Shown here: piece after piece, positions 16,809 to 62,386 of the stretch
Position numbering within the stretch: position 1 is the stretch's first letter
Layout of the letters: every line of letters starts with the position of its first letter
Assembly (NCBI RefSeq): GCF_009193215.1
Contig: NZ_VYVA01000001.1
Location: 496,001-560,000 of the forward strand
Length of the DNA: 64,000 nucleotides
Source of the DNA: Flavicella marina
Lineage (GTDB): Bacteria; Bacteroidota; Bacteroidia; Flavobacteriales; Flavobacteriaceae
Reading direction: 5' to 3'
Notes under the pieces: model-generated
Told to the model about the DNA's origin: nothing
The model's input: the letters and a program-made list of their open reading frames with translations, nothing else
The model's database searches: none
Program-made: the position numbers and the translations under genes

Positions 16809-17525
16809 TTATTTTCTGGCTTTTCTAGTGCGCTTTCTTAATTTGAATATCCTGTCTGCATAGTACATTTTTAATTCTTCCAGAAAATCCATGGGGTTAT
16901 CATAGGTGGTCATCACAATATAGGTTTGTTTCTTTTTAAAAGCACGCAACTCTAAAGTGATTTTTTGAAATTGAATTTCTAAATATTCATTAGGATCAAT
17001 ATCTAATTTTGATACTGGCACACTATCAAACTCTACTAAATTTCCGCTCATTACATAGGCATGAAAAGCCATAAGTTCTTCCAAACTCCCATTGTTATAC
17101 AATTCTATCAACTGACTTGCCGCATCTGTAGCCAAATCTTTTTGATCACTTTCCAAAGAAAATTTATCTGGATGCACATAAATCATAGCTTCTCGATACA
17201 AATATTTTCTTTGTTTCTTTTCATAATCTGACGCTACTTCTTTATAAGATGGAATAGGAACCACAGCCTCTTGAGGAACATAATTCTTCCCTTTTTGCTT
17301 TTGTAAAAGACGTTTTTGCTTTTTCTCTTTTTGGATTTTTTTATACAGAGCTGTCAACTCCTGAACCTCCACAATCTCAGACTCTAACGCTTTAATTAGC
17401 TCATTTTCAAAAGGCGCCAACAATTTCTCTAAACGTTCTAATTCCGATTTTTTATCAGAAATTTTAGCTAATAATTCTTCCTTTTGAGTGTTATTTGAAC
17501 TAGGGAAATTTTCCATTTTACGCAT
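16809..17525 (-). CDS. Coiled-coil protein with J-domain-like HPD motif
   Basis: A 238-residue cytoplasmic protein. Residues about 13-80 are a highly charged coiled coil. Residues about 105-160 resemble a DnaJ J-domain: a basic helix (K-Y-L-Y-R-E-A-M-I-Y) followed by V-H118-P-D120-K-F, the HPD motif that stimulates Hsp70. No zinc-finger or substrate domain of DnaJ is present. It may be a specialised Hsp70 co-chaperone (inference). The start could also be the ATG at 17516. The neighbouring T9SS adhesin gene is divergent and shares the upstream gap. Confidence 0.6.
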   Translation of the reverse strand: MRKMENFPSSNNTQKEELLAKISDKKSELERLEKLLAPFENELIKALESEIVEVQELTALYKKIQKEKKQKRLLQKQKGKNYVPQEAVVPIPSYKEVASDYEKKQRKYLYREAMIYVHPDKFSLESDQKDLATDAASQLIELYNNGSLEELMAFHAYVMSGNLVEFDSVPVSKLDIDPNEYLEIQFQKITLELRAFKKKQTYIVMTTYDNPMDFLEELKMYYADRIFKLRKRTRKARK

Positions 17526-32846: not shown

Positions 32847-33926
32847 TTAAATCTGTTTCAAGTAACCAATCAATTTTTCTGCTATCGCTGCTTGCTCATA
32901 AACTTTTGGATGCCCCGGTGAATCTTTATAAGACACAAATAGCGTATGCATTTTTTTATCTCCTGTTTTAGCAACTGCTTGTTTTACAAATTCTGGCCAT
33001 TGAGAACCTTTTTTGGTTACATCCATATTTCCTAGAATACACACTATTTCAGCCTTTGGATAGTGAGAACGTATTTTTTGAACAAAAGAAACATAACTAT
33101 CGATTATATACTCGTCTGAAGGCGCTTCAACACCAAATCGCCTTTTAAATTGCGGATGATTATTTCTTTTTACCAACCATGAATCATTCTGAAATAAATT
33201 GACAACTACGATATCAGCTTGTTTCTTAGAAAAATCCCAAGAATCATTTGCATCTTCCGGATTCCACCGATCAAACTCTTCTGGCATAGTCAAATCATCC
33301 CAACTTACCATAATACCAATTCCACTATGAGCAATGCATGAATACTCAGCATTCAAAGCTCTTGCGGTTAGTGCGCCGTATGCTAAATAATTATTGGTAA
33401 CATCACCAGTAGAACGATCTTTGCCTGTAGTATCCTCGTTACCATACCCTACAGTTATTGAATCCCCATAAAACTCAATAAAGGTTTCTTTTTTTGTTAT
33501 ATCTAATAGAGTATCGCCTTTGTATTGATAGGCATAAAAAAGCGTTTTTCCATGTATCCAATCATTGCGTTTATGCAACTCAATCTGATGAACCGTATCA
33601 GCTAAATTTTCAGCCAAAACATATTCTTTTTTCCCTTGGGACAAAGCTAAAACCGAAATCTGTTTACCATCTAAAACAACCGTGAAATAATTCTCTCCTT
33701 TTTCATCCTCTAGAACAGCCGATACAGCAGTTCCTTTGAACTTCAACGAAACCGAAGTTCCAGGCCAATACATTTCTGTTGCTTTTATTTGATTGTTGGG
33801 TTTGACTCTTCCTTCGTAATACAACTTTGTATTATCAAATGAAATTTCTGATTGTTTACCTGTACTTTTCTGTACAGGTTGACAAGCAATTAAGAATAAA
33901 AACAGGCTTGTAAGTAAAACTCTCAT
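32847..33926 (-). CDS. SGNH/GDSL hydrolase lipoprotein, CE2 acetylesterase-like
   Basis: A 359-residue protein with a lipobox ending F-L-I-A-C15. A jelly-roll domain (about 30-140, including P-G-T-S-V-S-L-K-F-K-G) precedes the SGNH fold. The nucleophile is Ser156 in F-Y-G-D-S-I-T-V-G-Y-G; the N-D of N-L-F-Q-N-D-S-W is the fourth block; the catalytic His is probably His339 in S-P-G-H-P-K. This two-domain arrangement is that of carbohydrate esterase family 2, which removes acetyl groups from polysaccharides. It would act in the periplasm or on the surface. No glycoside hydrolase gene is adjacent. Confidence 0.85.
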   Translation of the reverse strand: MRVLLTSLFLFLIACQPVQKSTGKQSEISFDNTKLYYEGRVKPNNQIKATEMYWPGTSVSLKFKGTAVSAVLEDEKGENYFTVVLDGKQISVLALSQGKKEYVLAENLADTVHQIELHKRNDWIHGKTLFYAYQYKGDTLLDITKKETFIEFYGDSITVGYGNEDTTGKDRSTGDVTNNYLAYGALTARALNAEYSCIAHSGIGIMVSWDDLTMPEEFDRWNPEDANDSWDFSKKQADIVVVNLFQNDSWLVKRNNHPQFKRRFGVEAPSDEYIIDSYVSFVQKIRSHYPKAEIVCILGNMDVTKKGSQWPEFVKQAVAKTGDKKMHTLFVSYKDSPGHPKVYEQAAIAEKLIGYLKQI

Positions 33927-34092
33927 AAAAATTTCAGATTAAATAATTTTGAGCATAAAACTAAGTAAAAATATATGATTTATTATGACTTAAAATTCCA
34001 GAAGAATCTACAAGAGGATAAAATTAAAAAATACATCTAAACTAACTTCAAATTTTTCACTCTCAAAAAAACAAAAAACCAAAGACTATTCA

Positions 34093-34100
34093 TACTTTTG
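34093..34100 (+). promoter_or_regulatory. -7 box of the TonB receptor gene
   Basis: TACTTTTG fits TAnnTTTG. It merges with the left arm of the palindrome at 34096-34126, so the expected transcription start lies inside the palindrome. Confidence 0.55.
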
Positions 34101-34126
34101 AGACATCGTAAAACGATGTCTCAAAA
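34096..34126. promoter_or_regulatory. Perfect palindrome over the promoter of a TonB receptor gene
   Basis: A 14-bp arm, TTTTGAGACATCGT (34096-34109), is followed by AAA and its exact complement ACGATGTCTCAAAA (34113-34126). No T-run or gene end lies upstream, so it is not a terminator. Overlap with the -7 box and the start region fits an operator for a dimeric repressor, or a 5' leader hairpin. Confidence 0.75.
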
Positions 34127-34146
34127 AATAAAACTTATTGATTTCT

Positions 34147-36363
34147 ATGAGAAAATATCTTTCGTTACTAGTTTGTTTGATGGGTGTTTTTTTTCTAAAA
34201 GCTCAAAAACTATCTGGTGTCGTTTTAAATACTAGCAAAACTAAAATTCATTCTGTTAGTATTTTAAATATTAGCAGTGGAAAACATACACACACAGATG
34301 AAAAAGGTAAATTTTCACTGGAAACCAAAAAAGGAGACACCCTACAGTTTTCTCATCTAAGCTATAAATCGAAAGATATTATTATCTCAGACACAAACTC
34401 TTCAATACAAATTGTATTAACTAAAAACTCCTTTAATCTAGATGAAGTAATTATTGGCTCAAGAGTGAATGCCCTTTCTGTAATCAGCGATATCGATATT
34501 GAAACAAATCCCGTAAATTCTTCTCAAGAATTGTTACGAAAAGTTCCAGGATTGTTCATTGGACAACATGCGGGTGGCGGAAAAGCTGAACAAATATTTT
34601 TAAGAGGGTTTGATGTAGATCATGGTACAGATATCAACATCAGTGTGGACGGTCTACCAGTAAACATGGTCTCTCATGCTCATGGACAAGGTTATGCCGA
34701 TTTACATTTTGTCATTCCTGAAACCTTACAAAACATTGATTTTGGAAAAGGACCCTATTACCAAAACAAAGGAAACTTCAACACAGCAGGATACGTAAAC
34801 TTTACTACCAAAAACCAAATTGATCGAAATAGTATCAAGATGGAATTTGGTCAATTTGACACCTTTCGTTTGTGCGGAATGTTTAATATTCTGCAAACTG
34901 CTACCCAAAACGCATATCTTGCTACAGAGTACATAAGTACTGATGGCCCCTTTGAAAGCCCTCAAAACTTCAACAGAATCAACCTATTTGGAAAATATAG
35001 AGGTTCCGTATCAGCTACTGATATATTGGGAATCACCCTATCTCATTTTACGAGTAAATGGGACGCATCTGGTCAGATTCCTCAAAGAGCTGTAGACAGT
35101 GGATTGATTACCCGATGGGGTGCCATTGACGATACCGAAGGGGGAATAACCTCTAGAAGCAATCTAGTAATCGATTTCGATAAAAATCTAGATGCCAATA
35201 CAACGATTAAAAACAAAATTTTTTACAGTACATACGGCTTTGAACTCTTTTCAAACTTCACATTCTTCCTCGATGACCCTATAAATGGTGATCAAATTAA
35301 GCAAAAAGAAAAAAGAAATATCTATGGTTTTCGCAGTGACTTCAATAAAGATTTCGATCTAAACAAGCTATATGGTAGTTGGCAAGCTGGTATTAGCATT
35401 AGACATGATCAAAGTAAAAACAATGAGCTTTCACACACTGCAAACAGAAAAGAAACTCTTGAAAACATAAAGCTTGGAGACATTCAAGAAAGCAACCTCA
35501 GCGGTTATCTCGGTGTAAAATTAGAATTCGATCGTTGGATCATCAATCCGGCATTGCGAATAGATCATTTCAACTTTCAATATAATGATGCCTTACAAAC
35601 CACCTACGAAACTCAAAACAAACAAGATCTTATAGTAAGCCCGAAACTAAACATCCTTTTTAACCCAACAAACGACCTGCAATTGTACACCAAATTTGGA
35701 AAAGGATTTCACTCTAATGATACGCGCGTTGTAATTGAAGAAAATGGAAAACAAACGCTACCAGGAGCTTACGGATTTGACGCTGGTTTTATTTGGAAAC
35801 CCACAACTTCAATGCTCCTTAATATTGCTTATTGGTATTTATACCTAGAACAAGAGTTTGTTTATGTAGGTGATGCAGGTATTGTTGAACCAAGCGAAAA
35901 AACCAAAAGACAAGGAATTGAATTGAGCTATCGTTACCAACCACTACCTTGGTTGTATTGGAATATTGATGTAAACTATACACATGCAAGGGCTATCGAA
36001 GAAAACAAGGGCGAAGATTATATTCCCCTAGCTCCTGACTTTACGCTTGTTAGTGGACTAAACATACTCCATAAATCAGGTTTCTTTGGAGGTCTTAACC
36101 TCCGTCACATAAAAGATCGACCTGCAAATGAAGACAATTCTATCAATGCGATTGGGTACACAGTAACTGACTTAAACGCTGGGTATAATTGGGATAATTT
36201 TAGTCTAAGTATTCAAATTGAAAACCTATTCAATACGAATTGGAATGAGACTCAATTTGCTACGCTATCACGTTTACGTGGAGAAGTTACACCTGTAGAA
36301 GAAATTCACTTTACACCTGGAACACCCTTATTTTTAAAGACCATCTTAACCTACCGATTCTAA
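34147..36363 (+). CDS. TonB-dependent receptor, possible metal transporter
   Basis: A 738-residue receptor; I start at the ATG at 34147. It has a signal peptide (about 1-20), a short carboxypeptidase-regulatory-like domain (about 22-95), a plug (about 110-225) with F-L-R-G-F-D-V-D-H-G-T-D-I and S-V-D-G-L-P-V-N-M, then a barrel ending L-T-Y-R-F. The plug carries V-S-H177-A-H179-G-Q-G-Y-A-D-L-H187, a His cluster that hints at a metal or metal-complex ligand (inference). The palindrome on its promoter suggests tight ligand-responsive control. The stop converges on the OprB-like gene, 22 bases away. Confidence 0.9.
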   Translation: MRKYLSLLVCLMGVFFLKAQKLSGVVLNTSKTKIHSVSILNISSGKHTHTDEKGKFSLETKKGDTLQFSHLSYKSKDIIISDTNSSIQIVLTKNSFNLDEVIIGSRVNALSVISDIDIETNPVNSSQELLRKVPGLFIGQHAGGGKAEQIFLRGFDVDHGTDINISVDGLPVNMVSHAHGQGYADLHFVIPETLQNIDFGKGPYYQNKGNFNTAGYVNFTTKNQIDRNSIKMEFGQFDTFRLCGMFNILQTATQNAYLATEYISTDGPFESPQNFNRINLFGKYRGSVSATDILGITLSHFTSKWDASGQIPQRAVDSGLITRWGAIDDTEGGITSRSNLVIDFDKNLDANTTIKNKIFYSTYGFELFSNFTFFLDDPINGDQIKQKEKRNIYGFRSDFNKDFDLNKLYGSWQAGISIRHDQSKNNELSHTANRKETLENIKLGDIQESNLSGYLGVKLEFDRWIINPALRIDHFNFQYNDALQTTYETQNKQDLIVSPKLNILFNPTNDLQLYTKFGKGFHSNDTRVVIEENGKQTLPGAYGFDAGFIWKPTTSMLLNIAYWYLYLEQEFVYVGDAGIVEPSEKTKRQGIELSYRYQPLPWLYWNIDVNYTHARAIEENKGEDYIPLAPDFTLVSGLNILHKSGFFGGLNLRHIKDRPANEDNSINAIGYTVTDLNAGYNWDNFSLSIQIENLFNTNWNETQFATLSRLRGEVTPVEEIHFTPGTPLFLKTILTYRF

Positions 36364-36385: not shown

Positions 36386-37576
36386 CTAATATGTAAGCAT
36401 CATCCTTAACCCTGGAATAATTGCCACATTTTTTGACACGGTTTGATATCCTTGCAAACTTCCTGCTACGGTTACCCAATCTTGTAAAAATATTTTATAG
36501 AAAGTATCAATTCCATACTCATATTGTCCATTCAACTCGTTAACCACAAAAGCAGCTCCTGCTTGATCTCCCGAACGGTTAAACGTATTTTTTAGAATAA
36601 AACCAGCAGTATAAGCTCCGTTGTATTTTAATACCCTGCCTGTACCTTTTGACAATTTCATTGTCAATATTAAATCATCTGAAACTCCCTGATTACCAAT
36701 ATACATCCACCCATTTCCCGCAGCTTTTTCTTGACTCTGAGGATAGGTATACAGATTGAATACATGGTAACTATAATACTTCTTTTTTGAAGGGATGGCC
36801 CAACGAACAAATCCTTGGTAATTGTATTTTGTATTCCCAAAGAAATTGGCAACATCTAAAACTTCGTTTTTAGGTGTGTCATCTAGTATTTGACCACCGA
36901 CAGATATATAATCCGAAATATTAACTTCGGCATACACACCAAAAGCGGCATCCATGTCGGGAACAGGATCTGACGATGCCGTTTTGCTAAACAGCGTTAG
37001 TTTATCCCAGGCGCTATATTTCGTAAATGACATGTAAAAAGTGGGTTCTAACTTACCAACAGTTACATCTAACAAACCATCGAAAAAGAAATTCTCGAAG
37101 TGTAAATATTCTAAAGATAAACCAGAAGTAGTTTCATCATTAGCATTAGGTACAGTAAACATTTTCAACTTTTTGGCAAAAGCTTTCGGATCACTTCCAA
37201 ACACTAAATTTGTATGCTCTACCCACCCATGAAAATTTAATTTGTAGTTTTTAGTTTTTACCCATTTGCCTTGATACAACACACCCAAATCGTAGTGAAA
37301 TGTATTGGCAGTTAAGCCACTTGAAAACCCACCTTGTGCAATTGAACCTAAATACCCAACAAAAGCATGGGTCTTTTGAGAATACATCCAGTGTTCAAAA
37401 TTGGTTTTTTGCTCTCTATGGTATTCTTTTTTCTCTGATTCTATAGCCGCTATTGGGTGGGGCTTTAAAGGTGTATCAAAGTTTTTTTCTTGAGCAGCAA
37501 CAAGCTGAACTAACAAAAAAAACACAGGTAAAAAAAACTTGTTTGCGTTATAAAATGAAGAGAATTTTAGTTTCAT
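36386..37576 (-). CDS. Outer-membrane porin-like protein, OprB type
   Basis: A 396-residue protein with a signal peptide (about 1-28, L-V-A-A-Q). The mature part is beta-strand-rich with W-V-E-H-T-N-L-V-F-G, the region G-K-L-E-P-T-F-Y and an aromatic end M-M-L-T-Y. This resembles the OprB carbohydrate-porin family. A charged N-terminal stretch (E-S-E-K-K-E-Y-H-R-E-Q-K) precedes the barrel. It is convergent with the TonB receptor, and a joint role in uptake is possible but unproven. Substrate unknown. Confidence 0.65.
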   Translation of the reverse strand: MKLKFSSFYNANKFFLPVFFLLVQLVAAQEKNFDTPLKPHPIAAIESEKKEYHREQKTNFEHWMYSQKTHAFVGYLGSIAQGGFSSGLTANTFHYDLGVLYQGKWVKTKNYKLNFHGWVEHTNLVFGSDPKAFAKKLKMFTVPNANDETTSGLSLEYLHFENFFFDGLLDVTVGKLEPTFYMSFTKYSAWDKLTLFSKTASSDPVPDMDAAFGVYAEVNISDYISVGGQILDDTPKNEVLDVANFFGNTKYNYQGFVRWAIPSKKKYYSYHVFNLYTYPQSQEKAAGNGWMYIGNQGVSDDLILTMKLSKGTGRVLKYNGAYTAGFILKNTFNRSGDQAGAAFVVNELNGQYEYGIDTFYKIFLQDWVTVAGSLQGYQTVSKNVAIIPGLRMMLTY

Positions 37577-39709: not shown

Positions 39710-40513
39710 ATGAAAACATTACTACGTTTATCAATAGTACTTTTGATTTTGATGTTTAATACACAACTTACAGCACAAGAAACTGCATCAGATTTCAAGT
39801 CTTCTAAAAAATCTGAAAAAAAATGGAGGTTTAGTATTACTCCTTATGCTTTATTCGCAGCGCAATCAACCGACGTTGGAGGTGAATCCATACGTCAAAA
39901 CTTCAACGACTTATCATCTATGACAAATTGGGGATTTCAAATTATAACAACAGTAAGATACGACAGATTTTCTTTTTCTTTTGATGGTACCTTTGCAAAT
40001 CTTGGTGGCAGTGGAGAAGTAAAACCTCTAAAAGCTGACCTATCTATAGATCAAAAAATATTCGACTTAAAAGCAGGATACAAAGTCTATGACAATTTTA
40101 AACTAAACAGTGACCAAGCAATAACCGGTTGGTCGATAGACTTCAGTCTTGGTGGAAAATACATGTTAAACGATGTCTCACTTGATTATTTTATTTATCT
40201 AGGTGACAATCTCATATTTGACGGAACTTTCAAAAAAAGACTTGAATGGTGGGACCTTATGGTTGGAGTAAATACTAAATTTATCGTTAGTCCGAAATTC
40301 TTGGTGAGCGTAGCGTACAATGCTGGGGGCTTCGGAATTGGTAATTCTTCGAAATTTGCTTCTGATTTTACTTATATAAACTCTTTCAAAGTACACAAAT
40401 ACGTACTTGTAAATGCAGGGTTTCGATCTTTTGGCTACGACAGGTTTGATGACGGAGTTGAAACAAACGTAAGAGTATTAGGTCCGATGCTAGGAGTTTC
40501 CGCAATTTTTTAA
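39710..40513 (+). CDS. Outer-membrane beta-barrel protein, unknown
   Basis: A 268-residue protein with a signal peptide (about 1-22, Q-L-T-A-Q). The remainder is alternating beta-strand sequence with W-R-F-S-I-T-P-Y-A-L-F-A and a C-terminal aromatic strand ending V-S-A-I-F. The layout is that of an 8-12 strand porin-like barrel. No catalytic motif. A terminator follows, so it is monocistronic. Confidence 0.75.
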   Translation: MKTLLRLSIVLLILMFNTQLTAQETASDFKSSKKSEKKWRFSITPYALFAAQSTDVGGESIRQNFNDLSSMTNWGFQIITTVRYDRFSFSFDGTFANLGGSGEVKPLKADLSIDQKIFDLKAGYKVYDNFKLNSDQAITGWSIDFSLGGKYMLNDVSLDYFIYLGDNLIFDGTFKKRLEWWDLMVGVNTKFIVSPKFLVSVAYNAGGFGIGNSSKFASDFTYINSFKVHKYVLVNAGFRSFGYDRFDDGVETNVRVLGPMLGVSAIF

Positions 40514-62344: not shown

Positions 62345-62350
62345 GCATAA

Positions 62351-62383
62351 AAAAAGGATTGATAATTTATCAATCCTTTTTTT
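62351..62383. terminator. Bidirectional terminator
   Basis: AAAAAGGATTGATA (62351-62364) pairs with TATCAATCCTTTTT (62368-62381), loop ATT, between convergent genes. Confidence 0.92.
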
Positions 62384-62386
62384 ATT

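Follow-up and report, generated by a model that had tools for sequence, protein, structure and literature searches.

A perfect dyad at the predicted promoter of a TonB-dependent receptor gene in Flavicella marina: a putative lineage-specific operator

The window analyzed here, a 64,000-nucleotide stretch of the Flavicella marina genome, carries a gene for a TonB-dependent receptor of 738 aa (34147-36363, plus strand) with Pfam matches to CarboxypepD_reg_2, Plug and beta-barrel domains and weak NCBIfam matches to several TonB-receptor models, all under their cut-offs. STN domains have a role in sigma/anti-sigma surface signaling; Pfam lists none for this receptor and, therefore, signaling of that kind is not suggested for it. 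To its left lies a CE2-type carbohydrate esterase gene (32847-33926, minus strand; Pfam, with a weak NCBIfam AxeC2 match below cut-off), and to its right a convergent gene (36386-37576, minus strand) has no Pfam match and only weakly matches the NCBIfam porin AaxA, at 29.9 bits relative to a cut-off of 600. The 220-bp intergenic region between the esterase and receptor genes (33927-34146) contains the perfect dyad TTTTGAGACATCGT-AAA-ACGATGTCTCAAAA (34096-34126, no strand assigned), a candidate operator on the basis of shuffles and of comparisons of promoter boxes and dyad polarity. Its two 14-nt arms (34096-34109 and 34113-34126) show 100% complementarity, and the receptor ATG (34147) is 20 nt past its end. 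The first-pass annotation, made from the sequence alone, had described a 31-base exact dyad with 14-bp arms, a 3-base centre and no gene end 5' of it. This description stands: the centre is AAA, and no gene ends upstream because the left gene (32847-33926) is read divergently, from the minus strand.

The dyad is genuine, non-random and well placed. When 33927-34146 was shuffled 2000 times with dinucleotides preserved (loops of up to 10), no perfect arm was longer than 12, a length seen once, relative to 14 in the real dyad; an arm of at least 13 occurred in 0/2000 shuffles, so that the inverted repeat exceeds chance. A repeat search also paired 34061-34075 with the end of the right arm (34119-34133) as an A-rich direct repeat of 15 nt (87% alike), which we took for chance, and a mobile-element remnant as the origin of the dyad was rejected after inspection by eye found no flank duplication. 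The longest perfect dyad listed in the window lies elsewhere (62347-62385; 19-nt arms, 1-nt centre) and is A+T-rich.

The left arm runs into TACTTTTG (34093-34100, plus strand), a motif match to the sigma-A type -7 box (TAnnTTTG); the overlap had been proposed at first pass, and the last five bases of the box are indeed covered. For comparison we used a 464-kb survey consisting of the window and the 400 kb to its left, with an ORF model of ATG starts and at least 60 aa. In this survey 137/375 genes have TAnnTTTG in the 150 nt before them (reversed motif, 55/375), and the motif is most dense 21-40 nt ahead of the start codon. It is this enrichment and placement that make TACTTTTG credible as a candidate -7 box. 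There is no TTG 17-23 nt upstream of TACTTTTG; likewise, in a study of Flavobacterium johnsoniae (PMC7366714), a -33 motif was not identifiable. A study of Flavobacterium psychrophilum (PMC9723704) places the box at -12 to -5, and if that spacing is applied to TACTTTTG, the predicted transcription start is at about 34105 (plus strand), inside the left arm, giving a leader of 42 nt and a dyad that would be centred near +7 and cover about -9 to +22. We infer from these data both that TACTTTTG is the promoter and that transcription starts at about 34105. Among the 118 TAnnTTTG boxes within 90 nt upstream of genes, TACTTTTG has the top dyad score, 16.5, with the second at 10.5 and the median at 5.25.

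The dyad could also act in the mRNA. If transcription began further upstream, for instance from TAATTTTG (33944-33951, plus strand), a possible second promoter box by motif match that the first-pass annotation had not mentioned, the leader would carry a 14-bp stem-loop ending 20 nt ahead of the start codon that might modulate translation or stability. Consistent with this, the plus-strand RNA of 34090-34135 folds to exactly the dyad stem (-18.7 kcal/mol, z -8.56, equaled by 0/200 shuffles), and the second box could supply RNA with the whole stem. However, RNA from 34105 keeps five left-arm bases and can form there a 5-bp stem, and the full leader hairpin is disfavored for the TACTTTTG promoter because its predicted start is inside the left arm; use of the box at 33944 would leave room for it. 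In addition, no Rfam family reaches threshold at the dyad, the window matches being two tRNAs only, and a known RNA element was discarded as a candidate since nothing matched over the dyad at gathering score. The stem is also missing from the 29 orthologous loci described below, and we consider a leader hairpin unlikely.

The receptor itself is widespread, being present in 104/249 family-sample genomes, its own included (E ≤1e-120). We read the 300 bases before the 29 best loci besides its own, using script-chosen start codons of which some may be off, and found a related dyad upstream of the receptor in none of the 29, the same-genus one included. Dyads of other kinds do occur: L039 has an unrelated one with 11-bp arms just 5' of its TACTTTTG, and those of L040, L043 and L060 bear no sequence relation to the dyad in the window. 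The 8-bp-arm dyad of L065, at -161, has a partial, slight likeness (ACATC/GATGT) and lies within the preceding gene; it was rejected as a relative. Exact 7-base pieces of the arms were found within 200 nt upstream in one of the 29 (L054, at -158). As to the box, TACTTTTG is present upstream of L005 and L039, and also of L045, L048, L049, L050 and L056; it is absent from L038, and L040 has TATTTTTG. Finding the box before an ortholog is therefore of little evidential weight: that of L049, L050 and L056 plainly belongs to the coding sequence of the preceding gene.

In 17 of the 29 orthologous loci (L041, L044-L052, L055-L058, L060, L062 and L065), the receptor lies 2-32 nt behind an open frame that is 433-453 codons long and resembles its counterparts at the C-terminus, and in L053 the distance is 71 nt. 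The three preceding frames that were fully translated look like TPR lipoproteins, to judge by their predicted products. The receptor in the window has no TPR-lipoprotein-like gene before it and stands alone behind a divergent gene. Further upstream in one such ortholog neighborhood is a protein that we presume to be DUF4331-like; a DUF4331 search gave 0 matches in the F. marina genome and 0 in control genomes too, so that the result is no evidence for its absence.

Did the dyad simply arise by accident? It may be that an imperfect promoter-proximal repeat was lately perfected by template switching in replication and has no regulatory role. The same-genus ortholog L005 (64% protein identity) aligns across the region with a local score of 38, matched by 6/1000 shuffles, relative to 105/1000 for L039 and 253/1000 for L038, which align no better than chance. 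L005 shares TACTTTTG, ATCGT and AAAAAATAA with the window, the remaining arm bases differ, and despite the alignment the dyad is absent, a pattern that agrees with such an origin. So does the absence of the dyad from other sampled genomes, in which there are four partial matches at 2 mismatches, as expected of a young feature. Against it, a single ortholog at this protein identity cannot give the direction of change, and a dyad at a start site, even an accidental one, would probably affect promoter or mRNA. We regard an accidental origin with no regulatory role as doubtful.

Perfect dyads are common in this genome, with 60 in the 464 kb surveyed (perfect arms of at least 12, loops of up to 10). 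At 56 of these at least one flanking gene ends, three are between divergent genes and one is within coding sequence; the dyad at 34096-34126 is one of the three. When polarity was judged by the five outermost bases on the left-arm side, 44 were of the terminator type and 15 were mixed, several of which start AAAG and may also be terminators; the single reverse case was the dyad at 34096-34126, whose order of T-run, stem and A-run is the opposite of that of an intrinsic terminator. Although the setting of those 56 would favor a terminator or one member of a dispersed repeat family, either is highly improbable here, as a T-run is absent after the stem on both strands, so that polarity speaks against an intrinsic terminator on either strand, and the genome has no second copy at up to 3 mismatches in the 20 inner arm bases, which speaks against a dispersed repeat. 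The first-pass annotation had thought a terminator unlikely, and the polarity, together with a terminator scan of 33600-34600 that returned no site, agrees.

How far is the dyad, or a part of it, repeated elsewhere? In the whole of its own genome, a 3.16-Mb draft, the 20 inner arm bases with up to 3 mismatches are found at 34096-34126 only. GACATCG half-sites with up to 2 mismatches likewise match nowhere but at the dyad, although the reversed control has one match too. With up to 3 mismatches and the spacing kept, the outer half-sites occur at nine places including the dyad, relative to six for the reversed pattern. The closest of these, at C7:105977-106007, has 1 mismatch and the same 13-base spacing and lies within an esterase coding sequence; we took it for chance, and it is still the best candidate second site. 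Inverted half-site pairs with up to 1 mismatch and a spacing of 0-40 number four in the 464 kb: the dyad, C7:105977-106007 and two more that are spaced differently. An exact TGAGACATCGT occurs in the window once more, at 40170, inside an open frame. The first-pass annotation had proposed seeking the dyad elsewhere in the genome and upstream of orthologs, and neither place yielded one (up to 3 mismatches in 20 bases; 0/29 loci); the lack of further sites in the genome is not decisive because many operators have one site. As an observation apart, the region of C7 at about 102.5-112.1 kb (L067 6492-16092) encodes, by reading, a ferredoxin reductase, a ferredoxin, a P450, an esterase and an alcohol dehydrogenase, and adjoins an AraC-type regulator and two glycoside-hydrolase-like genes. 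On the strength of gene names assigned by reading and recall, we take these genes to resemble a porphyran 6-O-methyl-galactose demethylation cluster.

Beyond F. marina, the 20 inner arm bases with up to 3 mismatches are in 0/5 congeners, and with up to 2 mismatches in 5/397 family-sample genomes (reversed control, 2), these being its own genome and the four partial matches mentioned above. The full 28 arm bases with up to 3 mismatches are in 1/395 order-sample genomes, which is its own (0/394 others). The 22 inner bases had no exact match in a genome-contig collection, which may leave out the F. marina genome, and a scan of the same collection with the receptor protein confirmed no relative. 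The 16 inner bases are present in four viral contigs, which, given the large collection, we take for chance. Receptor homologs are also found on plasmids (70 records), and these are of no use for promoter comparison because all are below 60% identity.

What, then, is the most probable function of the dyad? An operator for a dimeric repressor would, in our judgment, fit its position, symmetry and polarity best, since the dyad overlaps the predicted box and start, a classical position for a repressor. We give about an even chance to its being a lineage-specific, still putative, operator of this type. A DNA-binding repressor, acting as a homodimer and encoded at some other place in the genome, would bind the two GAGACATCGT half-sites and, by occupying the -7 box and start site, would bar RNA polymerase from the receptor promoter, until a signal, perhaps a nutrient or nutrient shortage, freed it. 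Against a conserved regulon are the single genomic copy, 0/5 congeners, 0/394 order-sample genomes, 0/29 orthologs and the lack of a neighboring regulator: a Pfam scan (E ≤0.001) gave 0 matches to transcription-factor families over the full set of 25 ORF-model genes at 21928-49461 plus one at 16809, although a nearby regulator gene is not a required feature of an operator. Of the two functions offered at first pass, operator or leader hairpin, the operator is favored by position and polarity, the full hairpin from TACTTTTG is not, and the genome and ortholog searches count against conservation of function. Unlikely, in our view, is the more specific proposal of a private, single-target operator, in which a repressor of this lineage gained one perfect site at the promoter of a widespread receptor. 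Control would then have been rewired when the receptor gene, which in many relatives directly follows a TPR-lipoprotein-like one, came to form a transcription unit by itself. The probability remaining beyond the readings listed falls to other causes.

We found no such operator described for flavobacteria in the open-access literature searched; PMC1790865 concerns Xanthomonas receptors. Similarly, among the matches listed for the letters GAGACATCG, no title pointed to bacterial promoters. If the dyad is an operator, it could serve as bait to isolate a repressor from flavobacteria, and it exemplifies new control of a common receptor family. If it is not, then a long perfect promoter dyad need not be conserved or regulatory.

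Repressor operators that overlap the promoter core are well known for regulators of the TetR, MarR and LacI types, and perfect arms of 14 bp exceed what most operators need, a point against the operator reading. Relative to these systems, we found here no repressor, no convincing second site and no conservation, and no specific consensus was matched; what is shared is the placing of a long dyad across the candidate -7 box and the predicted start, so that a dimer bound there would stand in the way of polymerase. The predicted promoter is similarly familiar, as TACTTTTG is the same TAnnTTTG box as in the sigma-A promoters of Bacteroidota (PMC9723704, PMC7366714), and the predicted leader of 42 nt compares with a mean of 65 and a median of 24 bp in F. 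psychrophilum (PMC9723704). What sets this predicted promoter apart is the dyad at its box, of a strength that is exceptional among the 118 boxes scored here.
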